This document shows positions 2,011 to 28,110 of a stretch of DNA of 32,165 nt, one piece after another (positions within the stretch are counted from its first letter, which is position 1; each line of letters starts with the position of its first letter). The notes below the pieces were generated by a model, which had not been told where the DNA came from, ran no database searches, and saw only the letters and a program-made list of their open reading frames with translations. A program made the position numbers and the translations under genes. Origin of the DNA: Myxococcota bacterium (GTDB lineage: Bacteria > Myxococcota_A > Polyangia > JAAYKL01); NCBI GenBank assembly GCA_025453525.1, contig JALOQD010000010.1, positions 1 through 32,165 of the forward strand, written 5' to 3'.

Positions 2011-3534
2011 CTACGGGCTCACGCTCTTGCCCTTGCCGTCTTCGAGGATGAGGGCGCGCACGGCGCGGCGAGCAACTTTGCCGGTCGGCAGGCGCGGGAG
2101 CTCGTCGACGAAAACGATTTTTTGTGGGATGCGCGACTTGAGCAGCTTGCCTTGGCAGAGCCGCTGCAACTCGCGCTTGTTCAGCGCGCTGTCGGTCGAA
2201 ATGACCGCTGCCGCAACGTTTTCGCCGAGCCGCTCGTCGGGCACGCCGACCACGCACACCTCGCGCACCCGACCGGTCTCGAGCAACACGCGCTCGACCT
2301 CGGCGATGCTGATGTTCTCTCCGGCCTTGATGATGATGTCCTTGATCCGGTCCGTTACGTGCAACAGCCCGTCTGCGTCGACGAGACCCAAGTCGCCGCT
2401 TGCGAGCCAGTCGTTCTCGCCGTGCTCGGGCTGACCGAGATAGCCGGTCAAGAGGTGCGCGCCGCGGAAGCAGAGCTCCCCTTCCTCACCTGGCCCGGCA
2501 AGGACGTCGCCACAGCGGACCGCGACCTCGATGGTCGGGACAGGTCGCCCGGCATGAACCCGTGGTCTCCCGTCCGACGCGCGCAGTGGCGCCAGCGAGA
2601 TGCCGCCGGTCGTTTCGGTCATTCCAAACGAGAGGAAAATGGTCTCGAGCCCGAGCGCGCGCTCGATTTCGAGGAGCTGCGCCAGCCGGCATGGGCTGCC
2701 GCCGACGAGGATGCGGCGGAAAGAGCGCAGGTCGTAGCGCGCTAGCCCCGGGCAGCTCGAAAGGCCGAGGAACAGCTCGGGCGGACCAAAGCTGATAGTG
2801 GCTCTGTAACGCACGATCGCCTCGAGCATCGTGGTCGCAGCAAACGCGGGGAGCAGCACAGCGCCGCTTTGGGTGGAAAGCGCAAGCAGGCACGTCACGA
2901 CGCCGAAGACGTGGTGCATCGGCGCCTGCAGTAGGAAGACCTCGTCGCGCGGCTCGATGCCGGCAGTGAGGCCAGCGACGGAAGCGACCAAACCGCGGTG
3001 ACTCAGCCGCACTCCCTTGGGCCGACCGGACGAGCCAGAGGTGAACAGGACCAGGGCATCGAGTGTGGCGTCGACGTGGAATTGTTCGCAGTCCCTTGGG
3101 TCAAAGGGAGGGATAGGGGCTCCACCTGGAAGAGGACTGGGGTGCACGCTTCTCGAGCCGCAAAGGGAGATTCTGGCGATTTGTGGCGCGACCTCGGCCG
3201 ATATTTCAGTGCCGTGCAGGTCGATGATCCCCACTGCTTGCAGCTCATCAATGCAGAACGAGAGCTCTTCGGGCAGCGCATAGGGGTTGAGCGCTGCCGG
3301 CACCGCTTGCGCGAACCAGGCGCCGAGCAGTGCCTCGATCCATTCGCGGCTGGTCGGCAGGTTAAGCGCGATATGGCAGCCTGGTCGAAACCCTGGTAGC
3401 TGGCGGATCGCCTGAGCCACCGCGCCCGCACCGGACATCAACTCCGCGGTGCAAAACGCCTCTTCGTTCGGCAGGCTCCACAGCCGCTTCGAGCTCGTGA
3501 CCGCGATCTGCGCGACAATCGTGGGAGCACTCAT
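2011..3534 (-). CDS. AMP-dependent acyl-CoA/acyl-ACP synthetase (ANL superfamily)
   Basis: VLFTSGSSGRPKGVRLSHRGL P-loop, SGDLGLVDADGLLHVTDRIKDIIIKAGENIS, C-terminal LPRLPTGKVARRAV; 4-nt overlap with the upstream ACP. Confidence 0.9.
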   Translation of the reverse strand: MSAPTIVAQIAVTSSKRLWSLPNEEAFCTAELMSGAGAVAQAIRQLPGFRPGCHIALNLPTSREWIEALLGAWFAQAVPAALNPYALPEELSFCIDELQAVGIIDLHGTEISAEVAPQIARISLCGSRSVHPSPLPGGAPIPPFDPRDCEQFHVDATLDALVLFTSGSSGRPKGVRLSHRGLVASVAGLTAGIEPRDEVFLLQAPMHHVFGVVTCLLALSTQSGAVLLPAFAATTMLEAIVRYRATISFGPPELFLGLSSCPGLARYDLRSFRRILVGGSPCRLAQLLEIERALGLETIFLSFGMTETTGGISLAPLRASDGRPRVHAGRPVPTIEVAVRCGDVLAGPGEEGELCFRGAHLLTGYLGQPEHGENDWLASGDLGLVDADGLLHVTDRIKDIIIKAGENISIAEVERVLLETGRVREVCVVGVPDERLGENVAAAVISTDSALNKRELQRLCQGKLLKSRIPQKIVFVDELPRLPTGKVARRAVRALILEDGKGKSVSP

Positions 3535-3779
3535 CGCGGCGCGAGCTTCACCGAGATCGCGCGGGCCATGTCGCCGACGTTTTTAAAGGTCGCGGCCTCG
3601 GCCTGCGGGATTTCGACACCGAAGCGCTGCTCAATGCTGTGGAGCAACTGCACATGGTTGAGCGAATCCCACTCGATGATCGCCTCTGCGGTGGTGGCCT
3701 CGGTCAGCTCGATGTCATCGGCGTCGAGCACCTCGCGGAAGACCGGCACCATCGCGTCTATGATTTCTTGAACTGTCAT
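3531..3779 (-). CDS. Acyl carrier protein
   Basis: 82 aa with phosphopantetheine site motif WDSLNHVQLL; ATGA-type overlaps with both neighbouring genes. Confidence 0.9.
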   Translation of the reverse strand: MTVQEIIDAMVPVFREVLDADDIELTEATTAEAIIEWDSLNHVQLLHSIEQRFGVEIPQAEAATFKNVGDMARAISVKLAPR

Positions 3780-5062
3780 TTCGCTTCCTTCCCTATTGGG
3801 TCACGCGAGCTGAACAGCCCGCGCAGTACCCTGAGCAGGTCATCGCCAAAGGTCGCGCCGAGCGAGGCGGTGTCCCATGTGACGTTGAGCGCGACCTGTT
3901 TGTTGAACTCCACCACGTTGAAGTTGCTGAGCGCGTATCCAACCGGTTCGATGTTGGCGGTCACTTTGAGCGCGCCTGAGAAAGCGGAATCGACGTGCAG
4001 CTTGCCGTCGAGGAAGACGTAAGAGATGTAGTGCTGCACCCCGCGGGTCGAGCGCGGAAAGATCCAGCGGACGAGCGCGAGCGGCAAGGAGGAGACGAGG
4101 ACGCTGCGGAGAAGAAAGGCATACCGGTTCCAGGGCTGCGCGTACCGCTCGGTGAGTCGGTTGAACAGCTCACGGCTTTGCTCCAGCGTGGATCGGCCAG
4201 CCCGGCGTGGAAATACGAGCGGCATAGAGCGAAAGCAGTTGTTGACCGTCGGCAGCTCTGGCGTGTTGTCGTAGATAACATTGAACACCCGCGCCAGTTG
4301 TGGCGGGGCGACGAGGCGATAGGCATGGAGCGCGGCGACCTGCAAGAGCAGGCTGCGCGACAAAGCGAGCCCACGGCGGGCGGCATTGAGCGCTTTGAGC
4401 TCGCCCTCGTCGAGAAAGACTGTCGCGATGTCCATCCTCCCTTTCCGGGGTGAGGTGAACGCAAACGACCGCGCCATCTCGCCGACCTCGCACCACAATG
4501 ATCGAAAAACGTTACGTGCGCTGTGTACGTGTTGCCGCCAAAGGTCGCGGTAGCTGACAAAGACGAGCTCCTCTGGCGGCGCCTTGCCGTTTTGCGGCCC
4601 GAGGACGCGACCGAGCACGAAGGCGGCGATCTTGGAGTCGCCAGCAAAATGCGGGATGAGAAGGAACAAGGAGCGCGAGCCGTCCGGTTTGTCGATCAGC
4701 CACGCATGGACCAGTGCGTTGCCGAACGAGTACGGCTCGCTGAGGCAGGTGACATAGAAGTTGCGTAGCTCGCGTTCGCTGGTAAAGAAGCGCGTGTCGA
4801 CGCGGGGCGATCGGTCGCCGGCTGGATCGACCAAAAAGACGGCCGGGTAGCGCTCCATCACCTCGGCGAGCGCGCTGCGCACTCGCTCCTCGGAACCCGT
4901 ATCGGCCGCGCACTCGAAGCTGCCGGCGAAGCGGTACAGACCATCTGCGAGCCGCGAATGGCTGTAGAAGATCGTGTCCACTTCATTGAGCTGCCGTCCG
5001 CTTTTGAGTCGCACGCGCCAACCCTTCTTGAGCGACTGAAGATTGCGCGCGTTTAGTACCAC
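3776..5062 (-). CDS. Condensation/chloramphenicol-acetyltransferase-fold acyltransferase-like protein
   Basis: 428 aa; LLIPHFAGDSKIAAF contains an HxxxD motif in the context seen in condensation/wax-ester-synthase-type acyltransferases; operon with ACP and AMP-ligase. Confidence 0.55.
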   Translation of the reverse strand: MVLNARNLQSLKKGWRVRLKSGRQLNEVDTIFYSHSRLADGLYRFAGSFECAADTGSEERVRSALAEVMERYPAVFLVDPAGDRSPRVDTRFFTSERELRNFYVTCLSEPYSFGNALVHAWLIDKPDGSRSLFLLIPHFAGDSKIAAFVLGRVLGPQNGKAPPEELVFVSYRDLWRQHVHSARNVFRSLWCEVGEMARSFAFTSPRKGRMDIATVFLDEGELKALNAARRGLALSRSLLLQVAALHAYRLVAPPQLARVFNVIYDNTPELPTVNNCFRSMPLVFPRRAGRSTLEQSRELFNRLTERYAQPWNRYAFLLRSVLVSSLPLALVRWIFPRSTRGVQHYISYVFLDGKLHVDSAFSGALKVTANIEPVGYALSNFNVVEFNKQVALNVTWDTASLGATFGDDLLRVLRGLFSSRDPIGKEAK

Positions 5063-5137: not shown

Positions 5138-6505
5138 ATGCCTCCATTTCAACACCACATCTTCGTCTGTTCCACTGTGCGAAAGGACGGCGCGCCCTGC
5201 TGCGACCATGGGGAAGGCGGGGCACTCGTCGAGGTGCTGCGTGCGCAGGTGCAGCAGGCAGGAAAGAGCAACACGATCGCGGTCACGCCCTGTGGCTGTC
5301 TTGGTCTCTGCCGGCGCGGGCCAAACGTTGTCGTCTACCCGGCGGGCCGCTGGTTCACCGCGGTCCGGAGCGACGAGGCGGCGGCGATCGTGGCCGAGGT
5401 CGAGGGCGCAAACTTCTCCACTGTCGAGCGGCCTGATCCCGACTCGGACACCATCCGCGCGGAGATCTCCCTTGCCCGCGCTCGGCAGCGAAAGCTGCGT
5501 GACGCTCGTGACCGCGTCGGAGTCATGCCCGAGCCATTAGAAGAGCTGCTGCGAAGCTACCAGGGGAGCCGCGTGGTGCTGACCGCGGTCGAGCTCGACC
5601 TGTTCAGCGCCGTGGGCGAGGGCGCGGCGGGCGTCGAGATCGCCCAGCGGATCGGGGCCTCGCCGACGGGGACGCTGCCTCTGCTCAACGCTCTGGTGGC
5701 GCTCGGATTGCTCGAAAAGGAGGCCGAACGCTTTCGCAACGCACCGCTAGCCGCGCGGTTTCTCACCGCCTTCGCACCGCACGACGCCCGCGCTGCGGTC
5801 CTGCACACCGCACAACTCTGGCAGCGTTGGAGCACGCTCACGGCAGCGGTCCGGGCCGGCGGCGGCGTGCGGCTCGAAGAAATGGCGGCGTTAGGCCCGG
5901 AGTGGACAGAGCCGTTCATTGCCGCAATGGACCGCAACGGGCGCGCCCGCGCTCCAGTGGTCATCCGCGCTTTGACGCTGGACGGGGTGACGAGAGTGCT
6001 CGACCTCGGCGGTGGCTCAGGGGCGTACGCCATCGCCTTTGCCGAGCGGCTGCCAGCAGCCGAGGTCACGGTGCTCGACGTCCCGGCTGTGACACCCTTG
6101 ACCCGACGTTACGCTGCCGCGAGCGGCGTGGGAAATCGCATCCACGTCATCGATGGCGATATCTCGCAGAAGAGCTACGGCTCGGGCTTCGACCTGGTTT
6201 TTGTCTCGGCGGTGTGTCACATGCTGTCGCCGCAGGAGAACGCGGCGCTGCTCGGCAAGTGCCGTGATGCGCTGCGGCCTGGCGGTCAGCTGGTGATTCA
6301 AGACTTCGTGCTCGATGACGACAAGACCAGCCCTCGAAGCGGGGCTCTATTTGCTCTCAACATGCTCGTCGGAACGCTTGGCGGGAGCACCTACAGCGGC
6401 GCCGAGTACCTCGATTGGATCAAGGCGGCTGGGTTCGAAGGCGGTGCGCTCGTCCGCTTACCGGGCCCGACGGGCCTCGTCGTTGCGAGGAGAGGCTGTC
6501 CATGA
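5138..6505 (+). CDS. Fusion: N-terminal thioredoxin-like [2Fe-2S] ferredoxin domain + C-terminal SAM-dependent O-methyltransferase (Methyltransf_2-like)
   Basis: N-term HIFVCSTVRKDGAPCC...VTPCGCLGLCRRGPNVVVYPAGRWFTAV (Trx-like ferredoxin cysteine pattern); C-term winged-helix region followed by VLDLGGGSGAYAIAFAERLP and GGQLVIQDFVLDDD. Confidence 0.85.
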   Translation: MPPFQHHIFVCSTVRKDGAPCCDHGEGGALVEVLRAQVQQAGKSNTIAVTPCGCLGLCRRGPNVVVYPAGRWFTAVRSDEAAAIVAEVEGANFSTVERPDPDSDTIRAEISLARARQRKLRDARDRVGVMPEPLEELLRSYQGSRVVLTAVELDLFSAVGEGAAGVEIAQRIGASPTGTLPLLNALVALGLLEKEAERFRNAPLAARFLTAFAPHDARAAVLHTAQLWQRWSTLTAAVRAGGGVRLEEMAALGPEWTEPFIAAMDRNGRARAPVVIRALTLDGVTRVLDLGGGSGAYAIAFAERLPAAEVTVLDVPAVTPLTRRYAAASGVGNRIHVIDGDISQKSYGSGFDLVFVSAVCHMLSPQENAALLGKCRDALRPGGQLVIQDFVLDDDKTSPRSGALFALNMLVGTLGGSTYSGAEYLDWIKAAGFEGGALVRLPGPTGLVVARRGCP

Positions 6506-6550: not shown

Positions 6551-6595
6551 AATATTATTGTTGCTAAAAAATGCGCACTTGGATAATGGTCACAC

Positions 6596-8296
6596 ATGGA
6601 AGTTACCCCCTCCCCAACGGCTCTTTGTTCTCGCGACGAACGCTTCAAGGTGAAGCCCGGCGCCGACCTCTCGGCATTGCTGAAGAGCGGTGCGGACATC
6701 GCCTGGTGCGCAGAGTTGCTCGAGCTGTCTCACACAGGCGCCTTGCTCGCGCTCGATGGAGAAATCGCTGCCGGCGTCGTCGTGACCCTGTGCTTGATGC
6801 ATGAGGGCAAGCTCGCATTTGAGGACCAGGCCACGGTGATGCGGGTCGATCCTCGCGATCCTTGCCGCGTGGCGGTGGCCTTTTCTGCTCGCCCACCGCT
6901 CGAGGCTCTCTCGGATGCGCTCCTGCCGCAGGCCTATGTGCGCGACGAGCTTGCCATGCCGCGGCAGCGCGAACGAGGCGGCGCGGCGCGGATGTGCCGA
7001 GTCAACGACTTCTTTCGTTTGAAATCGCCGGATCTGTTTGCCAAGTGCGTGGCATTCAGCGAAGGCATCGGCGAGCTTCAGCGCGCGGGCATGTACCAAG
7101 CGCTGTATCGCGTGACGCTCACCACTGCCCTCGACCGCCGCGCCGTGGTGTTCAATCCTTTGACGGGCCGCGAAGAGGTCATGGTGTGCTTCGACTCCAA
7201 CAGCTACCTCGGCCTGCACCTCCATCCCAAGGTGGTGGCGGCGAGCCGCGCGGTGCTCGATCTCGTCGGCTACGGGACGCCGAGCGCTCAGGTTCTCGGC
7301 GGCACGAGCCGCTACTTGCGCGAGCTCGAGGCGAGGCTCTGCGAGTTTTATGGCCGCGAGGATGCGATTGTATTTCCTTCGGGCTACGCCGCAAACCAAG
7401 GTCTCCTCACGGCGCTGCTGCGCGAGGACGATCTCGTGGTGCGCGACCAGTTCAGCCATGCCAGCATCCAGGACGGCAGCGCGATGAGCCTTTCGCACAG
7501 GCAGCGCGTCTTTCGCCATGGCGACCTCGCGTCTCTCGAAAAAATTCTTACCTCCGAAGCGCAGCGCGGAGAGCTCCAAGGGCGGCTGATCGCCACGGAC
7601 GGTGTGTTCAGCATGCACGGCGCAGTGGCTGACCTGCCCGGACTCGTCAGTGTCGCTGCGCGCCACGGAGCCAGGCTGCTCGTCGACGAAGCGCACGCGA
7701 CAGGCGTCTACGGCGCCACGGGCCATGGGACCGAGGAGCTCTTTGGCATGCCGGGAAGCATCGATGTGCTGATGGGCACCTTCTCCAAGGCGCCGGGCAC
7801 CATCGGCGGCTATGTCTGTGGCTCCAAGGCACTCGTGACCTACCTGCGGTTCTTCGCTCGAAGCGGGCTGTTCACCGCAGCCTTGCCCGCCCACCTGTGC
7901 GCGGGAGTGACCGAGGCGTTCAATGTCATGGAGCGTGAGCCAGAGCATCGAGAGCGGCTCTGGGCGAACACCTTTCGCCTGCATGCGATGCTCATGTCGG
8001 CGGGTCTGCCAGTCTCACCTACCGTCTCGCCGATCATCACGGTTTTTTCCGGCGCTACCCCGATGCTCTGGTCGCTCGCCGCCTCTCTGTTCGCAAGCGG
8101 CGTCAAGGTCGGCACCGTAGACCACCCGGCCGTAGCCAGAGGCGAGACCATCCTGCGCATCACCGTCAATGCGCGGCACACAGAGGGGGACCTCGAGCAA
8201 CTGTGTGCGGCTCTGCTGGCCGCGTATAAAGGGCACGGTCTTCTCGGCAAAACAACAGACGAGATCCGCGCCATGGGCCTCGCCCTCGAGCGCTAG
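6596..8296 (+). CDS. PilZ-like N-terminal domain fused to an alpha-oxoamine synthase (serine palmitoyltransferase/KBL/BioF family, PLP-dependent)
   Basis: AOS motifs: VFPSGYAANQG, DQFSHASIQDG, LLVDEAHATGVYG, GTFSKAPGTIGGYVCGSK (PLP lysine). N-term about 110 aa with LLELSHTGALLAL...DPCRVAVAFSA resembling PilZ (DxSxxG-like, degenerate). Confidence 0.85.
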   Translation: MEVTPSPTALCSRDERFKVKPGADLSALLKSGADIAWCAELLELSHTGALLALDGEIAAGVVVTLCLMHEGKLAFEDQATVMRVDPRDPCRVAVAFSARPPLEALSDALLPQAYVRDELAMPRQRERGGAARMCRVNDFFRLKSPDLFAKCVAFSEGIGELQRAGMYQALYRVTLTTALDRRAVVFNPLTGREEVMVCFDSNSYLGLHLHPKVVAASRAVLDLVGYGTPSAQVLGGTSRYLRELEARLCEFYGREDAIVFPSGYAANQGLLTALLREDDLVVRDQFSHASIQDGSAMSLSHRQRVFRHGDLASLEKILTSEAQRGELQGRLIATDGVFSMHGAVADLPGLVSVAARHGARLLVDEAHATGVYGATGHGTEELFGMPGSIDVLMGTFSKAPGTIGGYVCGSKALVTYLRFFARSGLFTAALPAHLCAGVTEAFNVMEREPEHRERLWANTFRLHAMLMSAGLPVSPTVSPIITVFSGATPMLWSLAASLFASGVKVGTVDHPAVARGETILRITVNARHTEGDLEQLCAALLAAYKGHGLLGKTTDEIRAMGLALER

Positions 8297-8305
8297 GGAG
8301 CAAAG

Positions 8306-9286
8306 ATGCGACGCAAGCCCTACCCGATCGCAAGCACAGATTTCTGGAAGGCCTATTGGATCACGCTGCGTCCCTATCTCTTTTTCCTTTCTGGCGCCGT
8401 GGGGCTCACAGGACTCGCGCTTGCGCCGGTTGACGCAGCCTGGCTGGCGATTTGCGGGGTGGCTTTCTTTCTGACGTACGGCCTGGGCCAGGCGCTGACC
8501 GACGTTTTCCAGACCGACACGGACACCATCTCGTCACCGTATCGGCCGCTCACCCAGGGTCTCATCGGCAAGCCCCAGGTGCTGGTGGTCAGCTTGCTCG
8601 GCCTTTTGGGCTGCAGCGTGGTGCTCACCGTCTCGAACCCTTGGAATGCCGTGCCTGCCGTTCTTGGCGTTATTGGCCTTTCGACCTACACGCCGATGAA
8701 GCGGCGGTTCTGGGCCGGCCCAGCGTGGAACTCCGCCGTTGTCGCGCTCTTGCCGCTGATGGGGGCCATGTGCGGCGGGGCCGATCCTCTACCCGTGCTG
8801 CGCAACCCGACGTTGTGGGGGCTGATGGGAAGCGCGTTCGGGACCTATGCCGTCTTTGTGATCCTCGGCTACCACAAGGACGTCGCCGCGGATCGGGCCA
8901 CAGGCTACCACACGGTGACCGTGCGCTTCGGCTGGCGGCCCTCGGTGATCGCGAGCGCGGCCCATGGCACCGCGGGTCTCGCGGCGAGCCTGCTCGCGCT
9001 GTGGATGTCTGGTGCGCACCTACCGTTTCCCTCGCTCCATACGGTGGCGGGCGGGGCGATGTGGGTCTGTGGCGCCTTGGCCTTCGGCGTAGCCCATGGG
9101 TCGATGTGGAGGGTGTCCTGCGAGCAGGATGCCCACCCCGCCATCGCCTGGTGCATCCGCGGGTTCGTGCTCGTTCATCTGGCCGAGGCCGTGATGCTGC
9201 GACCGGCGCTTTTACTCGTGGCGATGCCGTTCTACGCCGCGTTCGAGCTCGTGCTGCGACTGCGGCCGGAGAAGACGCAGATATGA
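8306..9286 (+). CDS. UbiA-family prenyltransferase
   Basis: Multi-TM; two Asp-rich motifs, ALTDVFQTDTD and YHKDVAADRATGYHTVTVRFG. Confidence 0.85.
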   Translation: MRRKPYPIASTDFWKAYWITLRPYLFFLSGAVGLTGLALAPVDAAWLAICGVAFFLTYGLGQALTDVFQTDTDTISSPYRPLTQGLIGKPQVLVVSLLGLLGCSVVLTVSNPWNAVPAVLGVIGLSTYTPMKRRFWAGPAWNSAVVALLPLMGAMCGGADPLPVLRNPTLWGLMGSAFGTYAVFVILGYHKDVAADRATGYHTVTVRFGWRPSVIASAAHGTAGLAASLLALWMSGAHLPFPSLHTVAGGAMWVCGALAFGVAHGSMWRVSCEQDAHPAIAWCIRGFVLVHLAEAVMLRPALLLVAMPFYAAFELVLRLRPEKTQI

Positions 9287-10215
9287 CCGCGCGTCCTGCG
9301 GCCCTCGTCGTGGTCAATCCCGCGGCCCGCGGTGGTCAGGGGCTCGCTCTGTGGGCCTCGCTGCTCGGTGACGTTGGCGAGCACGTCGAGATCGCGAAGG
9401 TCATCGAGACCACCGCTGACGACGCCTGGACCGCAGAGCTTCGCCAGGCGCTCGAGCAGGGCGCGTCCGTGGTCATCGCCGCCGGAGGCGACGGCACTGT
9501 TGGGACCGTGGCCGACTGTTTGATGGGAGTCCCTGCCGCGCGGCGACCCGTGCTCGGCGCGATCGGGCTCGGCTCGAGCAATGACTTTCACAAGCCCGCG
9601 TCGGTGCGGGCGGCGATCCCGCTGCGCATCGATCCGCGGCAGCCCCTGCGCCGCGATGTCTGCCGTGCCGAGCTCGTCGGCCCGTCGGCCCGCAGGGCGC
9701 GACACTTCGTGGTGTCGGCGAGCGCCGGGTTCACCGCAGAGGCCAACGTGTGCTTCAACCAGCTCAGGGGCTTTGGCGGATTTCTCAAGGCGCACTGGAC
9801 CGGTGGGGCGATCGCGGCGGCGGCTGTTGCCACGCTCCTGTCGCATCGAAACCGCGAGGTCCGTTTGCGATGTGCTGGTTCCACGGAGCAGCGGGCCGTG
9901 TCGCTGTCCAACCTCAGCCTGCTCAAGACGCCGTTCATCAGCGGGTCCTTTCGGGTCGACTTTCCGGTCGCCTCGGACGATGGCCTGTTCGGCGTGGCCC
10001 TGTGCTGCGGCCTCGGCAAGCTCGGCCTGATGCGCGTGCTCGCGGACCTCTCGGCCGGCCGGTTCGTGGGAAAGCCCGGGCGCGAGCACTTCCACACCGC
10101 GGCCCTCGAGCTCGAGGCCGACGAGCCCTTCGCCGTAGAGCTCGACGGCGAAGTCTTCGAGGCGACGACGGCCCGGTTCGAGGTCTTTCACAAAGCATTG
10201 GTGGTGTGTACATGA
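9283..10215 (+). CDS. Diacylglycerol kinase/sphingosine-kinase-fold lipid kinase
   Basis: MTARPAALVVVNPAARGGQG...VVIAAGGDGTVGTVADCLMG...LGAIGLGSSNDF; GGDGT motif. Start set to ATG 9283 (ATGA overlap with UbiA). Confidence 0.85.
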   Translation: MTARPAALVVVNPAARGGQGLALWASLLGDVGEHVEIAKVIETTADDAWTAELRQALEQGASVVIAAGGDGTVGTVADCLMGVPAARRPVLGAIGLGSSNDFHKPASVRAAIPLRIDPRQPLRRDVCRAELVGPSARRARHFVVSASAGFTAEANVCFNQLRGFGGFLKAHWTGGAIAAAAVATLLSHRNREVRLRCAGSTEQRAVSLSNLSLLKTPFISGSFRVDFPVASDDGLFGVALCCGLGKLGLMRVLADLSAGRFVGKPGREHFHTAALELEADEPFAVELDGEVFEATTARFEVFHKALVVCT

Positions 10216-11270
10216 CGCGATCCTTCGATCTGCTCGGCATTCTCGAAAACCAGCTCCACCAGGGCTGGGCCGTGGCGCTCTCGCGGCATCCCGCGCAGCT
10301 CAACCGAACCCACGAGGCCGACGCCGAGCTCGTGCCTTTGCCGGGCGGCGACGTTCTGGCCGCGACCATCGACACCATTACCGAAGAGATCTCCACGGGA
10401 CTGTACCGCGACGCAGAGACCATCGGCTGGGTGGGCGCCGTGGCCTCCTTGAGCGACCTCGCTGCCTGCGGCGCAGAGCCCATCGGTCTGCTCGTGTCCG
10501 CGACCTTGCCGAGCGTCGGCGCGAGTGCTTTCCAGCAAGGGCTTGCCAGGGGGCTCGAGGCAGCCTGCCGGGTCGCTCGGACCTTCGTCCTGGGCGGCGA
10601 TACCAACATCGCGGAGCAGGCGTCGATCACCACCTGCGGCCTCGGGTTGGTCCGCGGCGGCGCCGTGCTCACTCGCGTCGGGGCGCTGCCTGGCGACGAC
10701 CTATACGTAACGAGCAAGCTGGGACTCGGTGCGGTCGCTGCCGCAGCGGCCCTGTTCGCCCTGCCGCCCGAGGTGGTCGGCGAAGCGTCGTATCGCCCTG
10801 TGCCACGACTGGAGATTGTTCGCGCGTTGCGCAAGGTGGCGACCGCAGCCATGGACACGAGCGATGGCTTCATCGCGACGGTGGATCAGCTCATGCGAGT
10901 CAACGGCGTCGGGTTTGCCATCGACGTACCGGTCGCGCAGCTCCTCGAGCCTCGCGCTCTTCTTGTGTGCCAGCGACTCGGTCTCGATCCCCTCGTTGCC
11001 CTGGCCGTACACCACGGCGAGTTCGAGCTCGTGCTCACTGCGCCGCCGGGAGCGCGGGACGACATCGCAGTGCGCGCCGCAGCTTGTCCTCCTGGCCTCG
11101 TCCGCATCGGTCGCGTGACCGAGTCGCCGGAGATCGTGTTTCACGGCGATGGGCAGCGGCGCGTCGACACTTCCGCCTTGCGAAATCTGAGCACCGCGGC
11201 GTCAGTGGATCCCAAAGCCTACCTCGGCGAGTTGGTTCGACACCTCAATGGGGACGCAGCCTGCCGTTGA
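10212..11270 (+). CDS. Thiamine-monophosphate-kinase-like/AIR-synthase-fold protein
   Basis: MTRSFDLLGILENQLHQ...DTITEEISTGLYRDAETIGWVGAVASLSDLAACGAEPIGLLVSATLP...AAMDTSDGFIATVDQL; ThiL/PurM superfamily layout; ATGA overlap with the lipid kinase. Confidence 0.75.
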   Translation: MTRSFDLLGILENQLHQGWAVALSRHPAQLNRTHEADAELVPLPGGDVLAATIDTITEEISTGLYRDAETIGWVGAVASLSDLAACGAEPIGLLVSATLPSVGASAFQQGLARGLEAACRVARTFVLGGDTNIAEQASITTCGLGLVRGGAVLTRVGALPGDDLYVTSKLGLGAVAAAAALFALPPEVVGEASYRPVPRLEIVRALRKVATAAMDTSDGFIATVDQLMRVNGVGFAIDVPVAQLLEPRALLVCQRLGLDPLVALAVHHGEFELVLTAPPGARDDIAVRAAACPPGLVRIGRVTESPEIVFHGDGQRRVDTSALRNLSTAASVDPKAYLGELVRHLNGDAACR

Positions 11271-16132: not shown

Positions 16133-17035
16133 TTAACTCGGGGAGGGTACGACCCGGTTGCGGCCAGCATCCTTGGCCTTGTAGAGGTTCTCATCGGCGA
16201 CGCGCACGAAGGCATCCACGGTCGACATCCCCGGTTCAGCCTGTGTCACGCCGATGGAGATCGTGACCCGCAGGACCATGCCCTCGAATTCGATTCGGGC
16301 AGCTTGTACGAAAACTCGCAATTTCTCGGCTTGGTCCAACGCGCCTTTGATGTTGGTTTCGGGCATGAGCAGGGCGAACTCTTCGCCGCCATAGCGGCAG
16401 AACGTGTCCTCGCGCCGGACATTGGCCATCATGAGCTGGGAAAGCTGAGTGAGCACGCGGTCGCCGGCGAGGTGGCCGTTGTTGTCGTTGACCTTCTTAA
16501 AATAGTCGATGTCAATCATTAGGAGCGACAGGGGTCGAGAATACCGACAGAAGCGGTAGATCTCGCGCTCCGCCTCTTCTTCGAAGTACCGCTTGTTGTA
16601 GGCTCCGGTGAGACCGTCAGTCGTTTTGAGGCGGTAGATCTCCTCGTGATAGGCGTGCTCGATGTTGTTGCCAGAGAGGAACTTGAAGATCGAACGACCG
16701 ATTTTGATCTTGTCGCTGTCGCGCAGCAGATGAGTGGATATTGATGCGCCGTTGACGTAGGTGCCGTTGGTGGAGTTCAGGTCGCTGATGACCACGCCGG
16801 CCGAGCCTGGGATCAGGCGGCAGTGCATGCGGGACACGCTGTCGTCTGTGAGCACGATGTCGCAGTGGGGTGCGCGCCCTATCAGGACCTCTTCGTCCCG
16901 GATGGTGAAGCGCCGACCCAAATACTCGCCGTAGATCATTACGACGAAGGAGACCTCCGGCTGTCGGATGGACAACTTCGACGAGCTCGCTTGGGTGACG
17001 AGCGTCACGTCTGGGATATCGATCTTGCCTCGCAT
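16133..17035 (-). CDS. FHA domain-GGDEF diguanylate cyclase
   Basis: FHA: LIGRAPHCDIVLTDDSVSRMHCRLI...SDLNSTNGTYVNG; GGDEF: MIDIDYFKKVNDNNGHLAGD...RREDTFCRYGGEEFALLMPE (GGEEF plus RxxD I-site). Start could be 17035 or 17113. Confidence 0.9.
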   Translation of the reverse strand: MRGKIDIPDVTLVTQASSSKLSIRQPEVSFVVMIYGEYLGRRFTIRDEEVLIGRAPHCDIVLTDDSVSRMHCRLIPGSAGVVISDLNSTNGTYVNGASISTHLLRDSDKIKIGRSIFKFLSGNNIEHAYHEEIYRLKTTDGLTGAYNKRYFEEEAEREIYRFCRYSRPLSLLMIDIDYFKKVNDNNGHLAGDRVLTQLSQLMMANVRREDTFCRYGGEEFALLMPETNIKGALDQAEKLRVFVQAARIEFEGMVLRVTISIGVTQAEPGMSTVDAFVRVADENLYKAKDAGRNRVVPSPS

Positions 17036-17208
17036 CTTACCTATAGCCTCGATTAAGAATCGACACTCGGTTTGAATAGTAGAGAACTTTACCACATCTG
17101 CTCGGGCAGGCACTAGGGACGTGCTCCGGCGCCACTACGGCCTACAGTTGCAGGCCAAGAATCGTTTCATCGCTTGCCCTTAGCCCTATCGGAGCCAGAA
17201 AGCACGGG

Positions 17209-19831: not shown

Positions 19832-21565
19832 CTACATGGCCTCGAGGGGATAGACCTTGACCTCCACGCGGCGGTTCTTGGCGTGGTTGTTGGGATCGCC
19901 CGTATCGGCCGACACGTTCCAGCCCATGCCCTCCACAGAGAACTGGTTGGGCTGCATGGTCTTGAACTTCTGGAGCAAGGAAGTCTTGACGGCGTTGGCG
20001 CGGTTCATGGACAAGAGCTGCACCATTTCGAAGGGAATCTGGCCCTTCATCGACGCGTCGGTGTGGCCCTCGATGACGATGCGGGCGGCGCCGTACTGTC
20101 CGGCGAGCTTGCCGATCTCCTCGAGCACGAAGGGCACGTTGGGATCATAGAGCACGTCGATGGTCTGACCCTTCTCGATTTTTTGGATCTTCTTTTCCAA
20201 CTCGAACGAGTTGGGGAAAAACTGCACGATGACGGTCTTGGTGAGGATCTCGCCGCTTTCGGCCTTGATGGTCGAGACGCTGCGCGGCGCGAAATTCACC
20301 GAGTACTCGTCCTTTTGGCTCGCGTACTTCGGGTCGTTGCCCAGTTTCTTGATGAGGCTGAAGTCCATGACCTGATCGAACGGGGTCTTTTCCGTCACCT
20401 GACCGATTTTTTTGTAAAGGTAGTACGCGGTCTCCCAGGTGCGTTCGAAGTTGGTGGGGTTGTTCTGGTTCATGAAGAACTCGCGGTTCTCCGCGTAGTT
20501 CGTGCTATGGGCGTCGCCCAGCATGCCCAGAGCCTCGTCCGGTGGGATGGAGTACCCAGAGGCCAAGAGCTTCGCTACTTGCTGCTTGGCCGCATCTGCC
20601 TTGAGCGCCTCCATGGCATCGAAGATCCCGCGCACGAGGCCCTCGATGATCTCTGGATTCTCCGAGGCGAAGTCCGCGCGGGCAAACCAGACGTCGGCGA
20701 TGAGCTTGTTGGCGGTTTGAGTGCTGACGATGAGCTTGTTTCCCGGCACCTTGGAGAGGTTGTAGATGTCTGGCGCCCAGGAAACCACGGCCGCGATGTT
20801 CTTGTCCGCGTTGAACGCCGCCGCGGCCTGGAACGCATCGGCGGTGAACTTGAAGTTGACTTCCGCGGGCTGCACGCCGGCGTTGATGAGCGCATTGAGC
20901 AGGAAGTAGTGGGACGGCGAGTTCTGGGCCAGCACCACGGTCTTGCCCCGCAACTGGCCGATGTTCTCCACGCCTCGACCCACGATGCCGTCGCCGCCGT
21001 TGCTCCAGTCGATCTGCTGGTAAATGCGGGGCATGACGCGGGAGTCCTTGCGCATCTCTTCCAGGAATAGGGGGACCATGTCGAGAGTGGCCCAGCCGAT
21101 GTGCACCGTGCCCGTCGCATAGGCATCGCGCATGGCCACCGGATCGTCGATGAGCACCAGCTCGACCTTGAACTTCTTACCCGAGGGAGTCACCCACGGT
21201 TTGCCGGCCTTGAAACCGCCGTTGGCGTGGACGATGGGCGCCCAGCCGGCCCACACGTTGATGGCGAAGCGGACCGTATTGTCCTTGAGGGGCTGGTAGC
21301 CAGCCGTGCCCGCGACAGGGGGGAGCTTGGCCGACGGCACGAACTCATATTCCTTGACCGTGGTCGGTGCGTTGGAGTCTGGCGCTTCGGCAGCCTTGTC
21401 GCCACCGGTTTGGATATTCTTGAGCTCGTTGGCGTCGATGGAAACGAGATCGTCCTGCTTCCCCATGGGGGCGAGGATGCCAGCTTTGTACAAGGCGAAC
21501 CCGGCAAGACCGAGCACCACGATTCCGACGATGATCCAAAACCCGACTTTGGGCTTCCCGTTCAT
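19832..21565 (-). CDS. ABC substrate-binding protein (NitT/TauT-like) fused to C-terminal OmpA peptidoglycan-binding domain, N-terminal membrane anchor
   Basis: N-term TM VGFWIIVGIVVLGLAGFALYKAG; SBP region VRFAINVWAGWAPIVHANGG...GWATLDMVPLFLEEM...; C-term VIEGHTDASMKGQIPFEMVQLLSMNRANAVKTSLLQKF...SVEGMGWNVSADTGDPNNHAKNRRVEVKVYP. Confidence 0.9.
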   Translation of the reverse strand: MNGKPKVGFWIIVGIVVLGLAGFALYKAGILAPMGKQDDLVSIDANELKNIQTGGDKAAEAPDSNAPTTVKEYEFVPSAKLPPVAGTAGYQPLKDNTVRFAINVWAGWAPIVHANGGFKAGKPWVTPSGKKFKVELVLIDDPVAMRDAYATGTVHIGWATLDMVPLFLEEMRKDSRVMPRIYQQIDWSNGGDGIVGRGVENIGQLRGKTVVLAQNSPSHYFLLNALINAGVQPAEVNFKFTADAFQAAAAFNADKNIAAVVSWAPDIYNLSKVPGNKLIVSTQTANKLIADVWFARADFASENPEIIEGLVRGIFDAMEALKADAAKQQVAKLLASGYSIPPDEALGMLGDAHSTNYAENREFFMNQNNPTNFERTWETAYYLYKKIGQVTEKTPFDQVMDFSLIKKLGNDPKYASQKDEYSVNFAPRSVSTIKAESGEILTKTVIVQFFPNSFELEKKIQKIEKGQTIDVLYDPNVPFVLEEIGKLAGQYGAARIVIEGHTDASMKGQIPFEMVQLLSMNRANAVKTSLLQKFKTMQPNQFSVEGMGWNVSADTGDPNNHAKNRRVEVKVYPLEAM

Positions 21566-26301: not shown

Positions 26302-28110
26302 ATGCGCACCCACAGCGTCACTTTGGAAGAGCTCCTCTCCTACCTTATCGAGGACGGGCTCCTCTCGCAGGAACAGGCGGCCGAGGTGCGGGTCCGCGCA
26401 GATGCGCAGGCGGCCAGGCTCACTATTGCAGCGGGCCGCCAGGCTCGCCAACGGTCTGCGGCCGCGCCCAGTTACGCCGAGGTCGTGGCGTCGTTTCGCT
26501 TGAACGAAGGCGGCGAGGCTTCGCGACCGCTCCTCGAGGAGGACCGCATTGTCCGCTGCCTTTCGGCCCATGTGGACGTGCCCTACGAGAAGCTCGATCC
26601 GCTGAAGCTCGACGCGCAACTCATCACGTCCACGGTGTCCTTGCCCTTTGCCCGGCGCACTTCGGTGCTGCCCTTGCGGCGCCAGCTCGACACCCTGGTC
26701 GTGGCGGCATCGGATCCGTTCGATGCGCATCTCGTCGACGAACTGACGAGACTCGTCAGTTGCAAGGTGCAGATGGTGCTCTCGGCTCGTAGCGACATTC
26801 AGCGCCACATCACAGAGGTCTACGGCTTCAAGCGCTCAGTGGCGCGGGCCGCGGTGGAGATGGCTCCCTCGGTGGATCTGGGTAACCTCGAGCAGCTCGT
26901 CCGCCTTGGAAAGATGGAGGAGCTCGAGGCCACGGACCGCCACGTCATCAGCGCTGTGGATTACTTGCTCCACTACGCTTTCGACCAGAGAGCCTCGGAC
27001 ATTCATATCGAGCCCAAACGCGAGACCTGTCAGATTCGCATGCGTATCGACGGCGTGCTTCACGACATCTACAGCATCCCGCGGGCCGTGCATCCGGCGA
27101 TCGTCAATCGCATCAAGACGCTGTCGCGCCTCGATCTCGCCGAACGGCGGCGACCCCAAGACGGTCGATTCAAGACGCACAAGGAGAACGAAGAAGTGGA
27201 GATGAGGGTTTCCACTCTGCCCGTGGCGTTTGGCGAAAAAGTCGTGGTGCGCATTTTCGATCCCGGACTCCTCATTCAGGACGTCGTTGATCTCGGTTTC
27301 GAGCCAGAAGGCCATCGCCGTTTCATCGAGCTCGTGTCCCGGCCGAGCGGCCTCGTGCTCATCACGGGTCCCACTGGTTCGGGCAAGACGACGACCCTGT
27401 ACTCCGCGCTCAAGTGGCTGGCCTCGCCGGAGATCAATATCACCACCATCGAAGACCCCATCGAGATGGTGGTCGACACCTTCAATCAGATCGCTGTCCA
27501 GCCCAAGATCGGCCTGGACTTTGCCGAGGCTCTGCGGCATGTGCTGCGCCAGGATCCCGACATCATCATGGTCGGCGAGATCCGCGATCCCGAGACCGCG
27601 AGCCAGGCGCTACAGGCAGCGCTCACTGGACACTTGGTGCTCGCGACTCTCCATACAAACGATACGGCCACTTCGGTCACGCGGCTGCTCGAGCTCGGTC
27701 TCAATCCATACGTCGTGGCTTCGACCCTGGCCGGAGTCGTGGCCCAGAGATTGGTGCGCAAGGTGTGCGACTCGTGCCGTGCCGAGGTAGAGCTTTCCCC
27801 TGAGCAGATCGCGACCCTCAACATCGAGCTGCCGCCCGAGCGGGAGTCGTCTCTTCGCGCCTATGAGGGTCAGGGTTGCGTGCGGTGCCGCGGCACTGGG
27901 CTCTACGGTCGAACAGGTGTGTTCGAGCTGTTGCGGGTGACCGACTCCATCCGCAAGCTGGTGCTGGATCGGGCCGACGCGGTGGCCATCGGCAGGGCGG
28001 CTCGAGCGGACGGAACGTGGAACCTGCGTGAGGACGCTGTGCGCAAGCTCGCGCTCGGTATCACCTCTCTCAGCGAGGTCATGAGGGTCACGCTCGATGA
28101 GGATCGATAG
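26302..28110 (+). CDS. GspE/PilB family type II secretion/type IV pilus assembly ATPase
   Basis: MshEN-like N-domain; SDIHIEPKRETCQIRMRIDGVLHD; LITGPTGSGKTTTLYSAL; ILRQDPD-like VLRQDPDIIMVGEIRDPETA; LVLATLHTND; zinc motif CDSC...CVRC. Confidence 0.93.
   Translation: MRTHSVTLEELLSYLIEDGLLSQEQAAEVRVRADAQAARLTIAAGRQARQRSAAAPSYAEVVASFRLNEGGEASRPLLEEDRIVRCLSAHVDVPYEKLDPLKLDAQLITSTVSLPFARRTSVLPLRRQLDTLVVAASDPFDAHLVDELTRLVSCKVQMVLSARSDIQRHITEVYGFKRSVARAAVEMAPSVDLGNLEQLVRLGKMEELEATDRHVISAVDYLLHYAFDQRASDIHIEPKRETCQIRMRIDGVLHDIYSIPRAVHPAIVNRIKTLSRLDLAERRRPQDGRFKTHKENEEVEMRVSTLPVAFGEKVVVRIFDPGLLIQDVVDLGFEPEGHRRFIELVSRPSGLVLITGPTGSGKTTTLYSALKWLASPEINITTIEDPIEMVVDTFNQIAVQPKIGLDFAEALRHVLRQDPDIIMVGEIRDPETASQALQAALTGHLVLATLHTNDTATSVTRLLELGLNPYVVASTLAGVVAQRLVRKVCDSCRAEVELSPEQIATLNIELPPERESSLRAYEGQGCVRCRGTGLYGRTGVFELLRVTDSIRKLVLDRADAVAIGRAARADGTWNLREDAVRKLALGITSLSEVMRVTLDEDR

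Follow-up and report, generated by a model that had tools for sequence, protein, structure and literature searches.

A protein of 566 residues encoded in the window (the whole 32,165-nucleotide stretch analysed here, from a Myxococcota bacterium) consists of an N-terminal PilZ domain fused to a complete PLP-dependent alpha-oxoamine synthase (AOS) (Table 1). The fusion is real, if rare: the PilZ-AOS architecture is found at six divergent loci (the window, L003, L008, L009, L011 and L012), which argues against a mis-called start. A sequence-only reading of this DNA had proposed a PilZ-like N-terminus, with ELSHTG and RDER as its motifs, ahead of a complete AOS with a PLP lysine. Both motifs were read correctly and both domain assignments are borne out by the results below, while the objection that the fusion might not be conserved, or its start mis-called, is answered by the six diverged loci.

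Table 1. Features of the PilZ-AOS locus and the other loci encoding the fusion
Feature	Position	Strand	Basis or remark
Ferredoxin-like N-terminus + O-methyltransferase	5138..6505	+	PF00891 E 4e-27, NF041613 E 2e-15; upstream gene
PilZ-AOS fusion gene, 566 aa	6596..8296	+	open frame; AOS family matches; architecture repeated in L003, L008, L009, L011, L012
PilZ domain, about residues 13-112	6632..6931	+	hhalign with controls; AF2 and Foldseek; Pfam PilZ on relatives; invariant R13, R16, S45, G48
Linker, residues about 113-196	6932..7183	+	alignment; matches starting near residue 136
AOS catalytic domain	7184..8293	+	alignment, loop scan, structure match; loop GYGTPSAQVLGGT
UbiA-type prenyltransferase	8306..9286	+	9 bp past AOS; PF01040 E 3e-22
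YegS-like lipid kinase (DAGK_cat + YegS_C)	9283..10215	+	PF00781, PF19279; ATGA overlap with UbiA gene
ThiL-like (AIR synthase fold) kinase	10212..11270	+	TIGR01379 163 bits vs cut-off 184; overlaps YegS-like gene
FHA-GGDEF diguanylate cyclase	16133-17113	-	RYGGEEF intact
PilZ-AOS, L003 (G247)			locus stops inside gene
PilZ-AOS, L008			Deltaproteobacteria MAG
PilZ-AOS, L009 (G194)			Myxococcales MAG
PilZ-AOS, L011 (G173)			Myxococcales MAG
PilZ-AOS, L012 (G208)			Sorangiineae MAG

A plain domain HMM run on the window protein alone would miss the PilZ domain, as residues 1-120 match nothing in Pfam or NCBIfam. Searching PDB sequences with a profile built from the six N-termini also returned no PilZ. 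A HMMER model made from the genomic PilZ domains, used in a six-frame search, recovered none of the PilZ-AOS family; plain HMM searches thus undercount this type of domain. Taking the Pfam, NCBIfam and PDB-sequence blanks as proof that PilZ is absent was considered and overruled by profile-profile and structure tests. When the profile of the six N-termini was aligned by hhalign with 21 genomic PilZ domains, of which 20 belong to the window's genome and one to G009, the probability was 95.5 and the score 49.9, compared with a maximum of 13.7 for 60 column shuffles and 8.3 for the reversed profile. The score was still 47.6 when L011 and L008, the two best Pfam matches, were left out. The window sequence alone scored only 22.7, so the relatives were needed to reveal the domain. 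Against Pfam PilZ (PF07238, cut-off 22.5 bits), the N-termini of L011 and L008 scored 25.7 bits and 22.0 bits, respectively, the latter slightly under the cut-off. The domain HMM suggested by the sequence-only reading therefore finds nothing in the window itself but succeeds with a relative. Structure prediction, also suggested there, gave a confident AF2 model (average pLDDT of about 89-95 for residues 21-110) with seven strands, forming a beta-barrel, and a C-terminal helix. In a Foldseek search of the PDB, PilZ domains took nearly all of the best 33 places; the matches included Alg44, MotI, BcsA, YcgR, MrkH and VCA0042, with a probability of 1.00 for Alg44, MotI, YcgR and BcsA.

The stop-to-stop frame around the gene opens only at 6587, with no start possible further upstream, and the ATG at 6596 is consequently the first ordinary start. 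That the N-terminal region is a wrong-start artefact lying outside the real protein is scarcely credible. A methionine (MCRVNDFF) does sit just before the portion common to PilZ-less relatives, and no strong ribosome-binding site was visible ahead of 6596. However, homologous PilZ domains are encoded in frame at all six diverged loci, the N-terminal fold is predicted confidently, and codon-position GC is similar in the PilZ part (0.70/0.48/0.73), the linker (0.69/0.47/0.78) and the AOS part (0.68/0.48/0.79); as regards coding, the six loci and the uniform codon bias rule the artefact out. In the alignment, the later part of the linker, starting at about residue 136, also occurs in PilZ-less relatives and in PigH-type proteins.

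The C-terminal domain matches the Pfam aminotransferase I/II family over residues 197-540 (E 6e-44, well over the cut-off) as well as the BioF, Kbl and SPT families, but falls below the NCBIfam equivalog cut-offs for BioF (321 bits, cut-off 426), Kbl (294, 460), SPT (281, 640) and ALAS (244, 339). It has the fold type I PLP enzyme fold and the catalytic residues of an AOS, supported by the match to solved structures. H288, D364, H367, K398 and R521 are invariant in the AOS alignment; by their counterparts in the family, K398 would be the Schiff-base PLP lysine, H288 the PLP-stacking residue, R521 the carboxylate-binding residue and D364 and H367 active-site residues. A loop scan identified GYGTPSxQ (in the window, GYGTPSAQVLGGT) as a signature of the clade to which the protein belongs, with Gln in place of the Arg found in the other AOS whose loop was readable. 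In the ALAS structure, the residues flanking this position contact the acyl substrate, so the Gln-type loop might reflect a preference for another acyl group.

In a tree of 52 AOS, the six PilZ-AOS proteins and two PilZ-less relatives (G114 and L010) form one clade with 100% SH-aLRT support, although the tree was a quick one with long branches and the order inside the clade is unsure. G019 is a further PilZ-less member. All three PilZ-less relatives retain the AOS-UbiA-kinase operon, and no hidden or frameshifted PilZ was found upstream of the AOS genes of G114 and L010. Two changes are needed on the tree, and so PilZ, inside the clade or at its base, was either acquired and later lost or acquired on two occasions. 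Red-pigment producers, such as Serratia, Pseudoalteromonas rubra, Vibrio ruber and Hahella, have AOS that fall outside the clade and carry carrier domains in the place of PilZ. Within the window's class, PilZ-AOS was found in at least five genomes (G000, G173, G194, G208 and G247, the window's own included) among the 290-318 searched and in none of the 13 other same-family genomes listed; these counts are lower bounds, as few candidates were scored per genome and the survey missed the AOS of G019.

The UbiA-type, YegS-like and ThiL-like genes that follow the AOS are joined in the window by ATGA overlaps. The order AOS, UbiA, YegS-like, ThiL-like is found in the window, L008, L009, L010, G114 and G019, representing two phyla (L010 is from Thermoanaerobaculaceae, Acidobacteriota); L011 and L012 encode PilZ-AOS with no lipid-type operon nearby. 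In the window UbiA protein, TDVFQTDTD replaces NDxxDxxxD, and TDxxQxDTD is invariant in the five UbiA proteins aligned. That the ThiL-like gene is the thiamine gene of this genome was rejected, as a canonical thiL (321 bits) lies on contig C259, so the operon paralogue probably has another role. This gene content points to a lipid-like product. At L009, a gene for a BtaA-like DUF3419 protein (6889-7992, + strand) overlaps the start of the PilZ-AOS gene, a further pointer to lipids. The sequence-only reading had described a lipid/biotin-type enzyme: the operon context agrees with the lipid part and not with biotin, and the nearest AOS of known pathway are PigH-type and not BioF. Whatever its product, the four-gene cassette is an uncharacterised pathway in its own right.

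The gene immediately upstream, in which a thioredoxin-like [2Fe-2S] ferredoxin domain is fused to an O-methyltransferase, possibly belongs to the same pathway as the AOS; no counterpart was found at the other loci. The protein encoded at 3776-5062 (- strand) had no credible match in Pfam or NCBIfam, although an HFAGD (HxxxD) motif noted on visual inspection suggests that it is possibly a condensation-type acyltransferase. Next on the same strand is a long-chain acyl-CoA ligase-like gene (2011-3534). Elsewhere in the window, a gene encoding an NMT1-like substrate-binding region and an OmpA domain (19832-21565, - strand) adjoins ABC transporter and PspA-like genes.

With 26 PilZ matches above the cut-off, the window's genome is rich in c-di-GMP signalling. 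A second potential c-di-GMP effector of the window is encoded at 26302-28110 (+ strand), a PilB-like T2SSE ATPase that carries an MshEN domain. The diguanylate cyclase to which the sequence-only reading drew attention is a real FHA-GGDEF gene. Apart from one weak motif match near L012, no diguanylate cyclase lies beside the other PilZ-AOS genes; a conserved linkage was thus ruled out, and its proximity in the window is no evidence of a functional connection.

The motifs expected to bind c-di-GMP read R13-D-E-R16-F and E43-L-S45-H-T-G48 in the window protein. The N-terminal regions of the other loci have 21-30% identity to that of the window, and eight columns are invariant across the six (M1, R13, R16, S45, G48, R83, F96 and L105). 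All six have RxxR[FY] as the first motif, which is shorter than RxxxR by one residue; depending on the alignment, either Arg can be the displaced one, and in an alternative register L009 shows R-FHV-R while the window and L008 have Lys in place of the second Arg. The second motif is ELSHTG in the window and DISTTG, EVSRSG, NLSSRG, NISRTG or NISESG elsewhere. Ser and Gly are thus present in 6/6, but the D or N of [D/N]xSxxG in only 4/6, the window and L009 having E. RxxxR together with [D/N]xSxxG occurs in none of the six. As the two Arg, the Ser and the Gly never vary despite such low identity, the signature is altered yet apparently constrained. Judged from these alignments, the motifs of the domain that had been called possibly degenerate are altered, by the RxxR and the E at the D/N position, but not lost.

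Binding of c-di-GMP by this domain is possible, and the motif evidence appears readable in both directions. RxxR and E43 are not canonical, and PilZ domains with degenerate motifs may not bind. Two myxobacterial proteins caution against predicting binding from motifs: PixB binds c-di-GMP although the motif Ser is missing from its PilZ domains (PMC8316039), while CsdK1, a PilZ-DnaK protein of M. xanthus, lacks half of the motif (PMC10313047). It is quite possible, if somewhat short of probable, that the domain no longer binds nucleotides and serves the AOS in oligomerisation, localisation or protein docking, as PilZ domains without a ligand do in other proteins. Such a role would fit the E in the window and L009, the lack of the full motif pair in all six proteins, a divergence so great that Pfam misses the window domain, and the precedent of CsdK1 (PMC10313047). 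Had binding been lost, however, the two Arg, the Ser and the Gly need not have remained invariant at 21-30% identity, although Ser and Gly may be retained for the fold.

Our best explanation of the whole, held at slightly less than an even chance, is a two-domain enzyme in which PilZ tunes an AOS that feeds a lipid-like pathway. By analogy with its family, the AOS would act as a dimer, condensing an amino acid (most likely serine) with an acyl thioester to release CO2 and yield an amino-ketone. The operon suggests that the YegS-like kinase would then add a first phosphate, that the ThiL-like kinase might add a second to give a diphosphate, and that the UbiA enzyme would attach a prenyl or other diphosphate-activated chain. 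PilZ would have a regulatory function, adjusting the AOS on binding a cyclic dinucleotide, most likely c-di-GMP, and the PilZ domains of PixB, thought to act likewise, would be the model for this control. Since some members of the AOS clade are without PilZ, the domain is best seen as a control add-on outside the chemistry, and its regulation of the AOS is not obligatory. The more specific proposal, that c-di-GMP or another cyclic dinucleotide binds through the shortened RxxR and directly switches an AOS making a new prenylated or pyrophosphorylated amino-lipid, which would be the first second-messenger gate on an AOS, we consider unlikely on present evidence. Were c-di-GMP sensed, lifestyle signalling would act directly on the activity of an enzyme that makes amino-lipids or natural products. 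The RxxR family would also be a test of how much the c-di-GMP motif can change without loss of binding.

Among the papers searched, none reports PilZ on a BioF/SPT-family enzyme, the one paper in which both names occur doing so through an author's name, and the PilZ-AOS combination appears to be unreported; PilZ-regulated enzymes as such are already known. PilZ domains are known to control polysaccharide synthases and proteins of motility, as well as an acetyltransferase of myxobacteria. The PilZ domains of Alg44, MotI and YcgR resemble window residues about 16-112 in fold; unlike the window domain, they carry the canonical RxxxR and [D/N]xSxxG motifs and are not fused to a PLP enzyme. Serine palmitoyltransferase, ThAOS and Kbl, the best solved-structure matches of the AOS domain, share its fold, PLP lysine and active-site residues but have no PilZ domain.

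The nearest relatives of known pathway returned by the genome scan are PigH-type prodiginine AOS (about 40% identity), which likewise have extra N-terminal domains before the same linker. PigH itself consists of two carrier domains and a serine-using PLP domain (PMC3870968). The window protein is not PigH-type: PilZ replaces the carrier domains, the loop is GYGTPSxQ in contrast to GATNTGCR, and the PigH-type proteins lie outside its eight-member, 100% clade. A prodiginine cluster, considered because PigH-type proteins dominate the wider relatives, was ruled out by this separate clade and by neighbours of other types, no prodiginine gene set being seen around the window AOS. As the same linker and AOS are preceded in PigH-type proteins by a single carrier domain or by two (PMC3870968), PilZ and carrier modules are positionally interchangeable, and the N-terminal domain might stand in for the carriers by helping to deliver or dock an acyl-carrier substrate. 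We find this improbable, because PilZ lacks a phosphopantetheine site and the PilZ-less members retain the operon with no substitute domain. PixB of Myxococcus xanthus, which has two PilZ domains and a GNAT acetyltransferase domain (PMC8316039), differs from the window protein in having a GNAT fold in place of a PLP enzyme, two PilZ domains instead of one, a role in motility and development, and no lipid operon, but is similar in that a PilZ domain with an imperfect motif is carried by an acyl-transferring enzyme of a myxobacterium.
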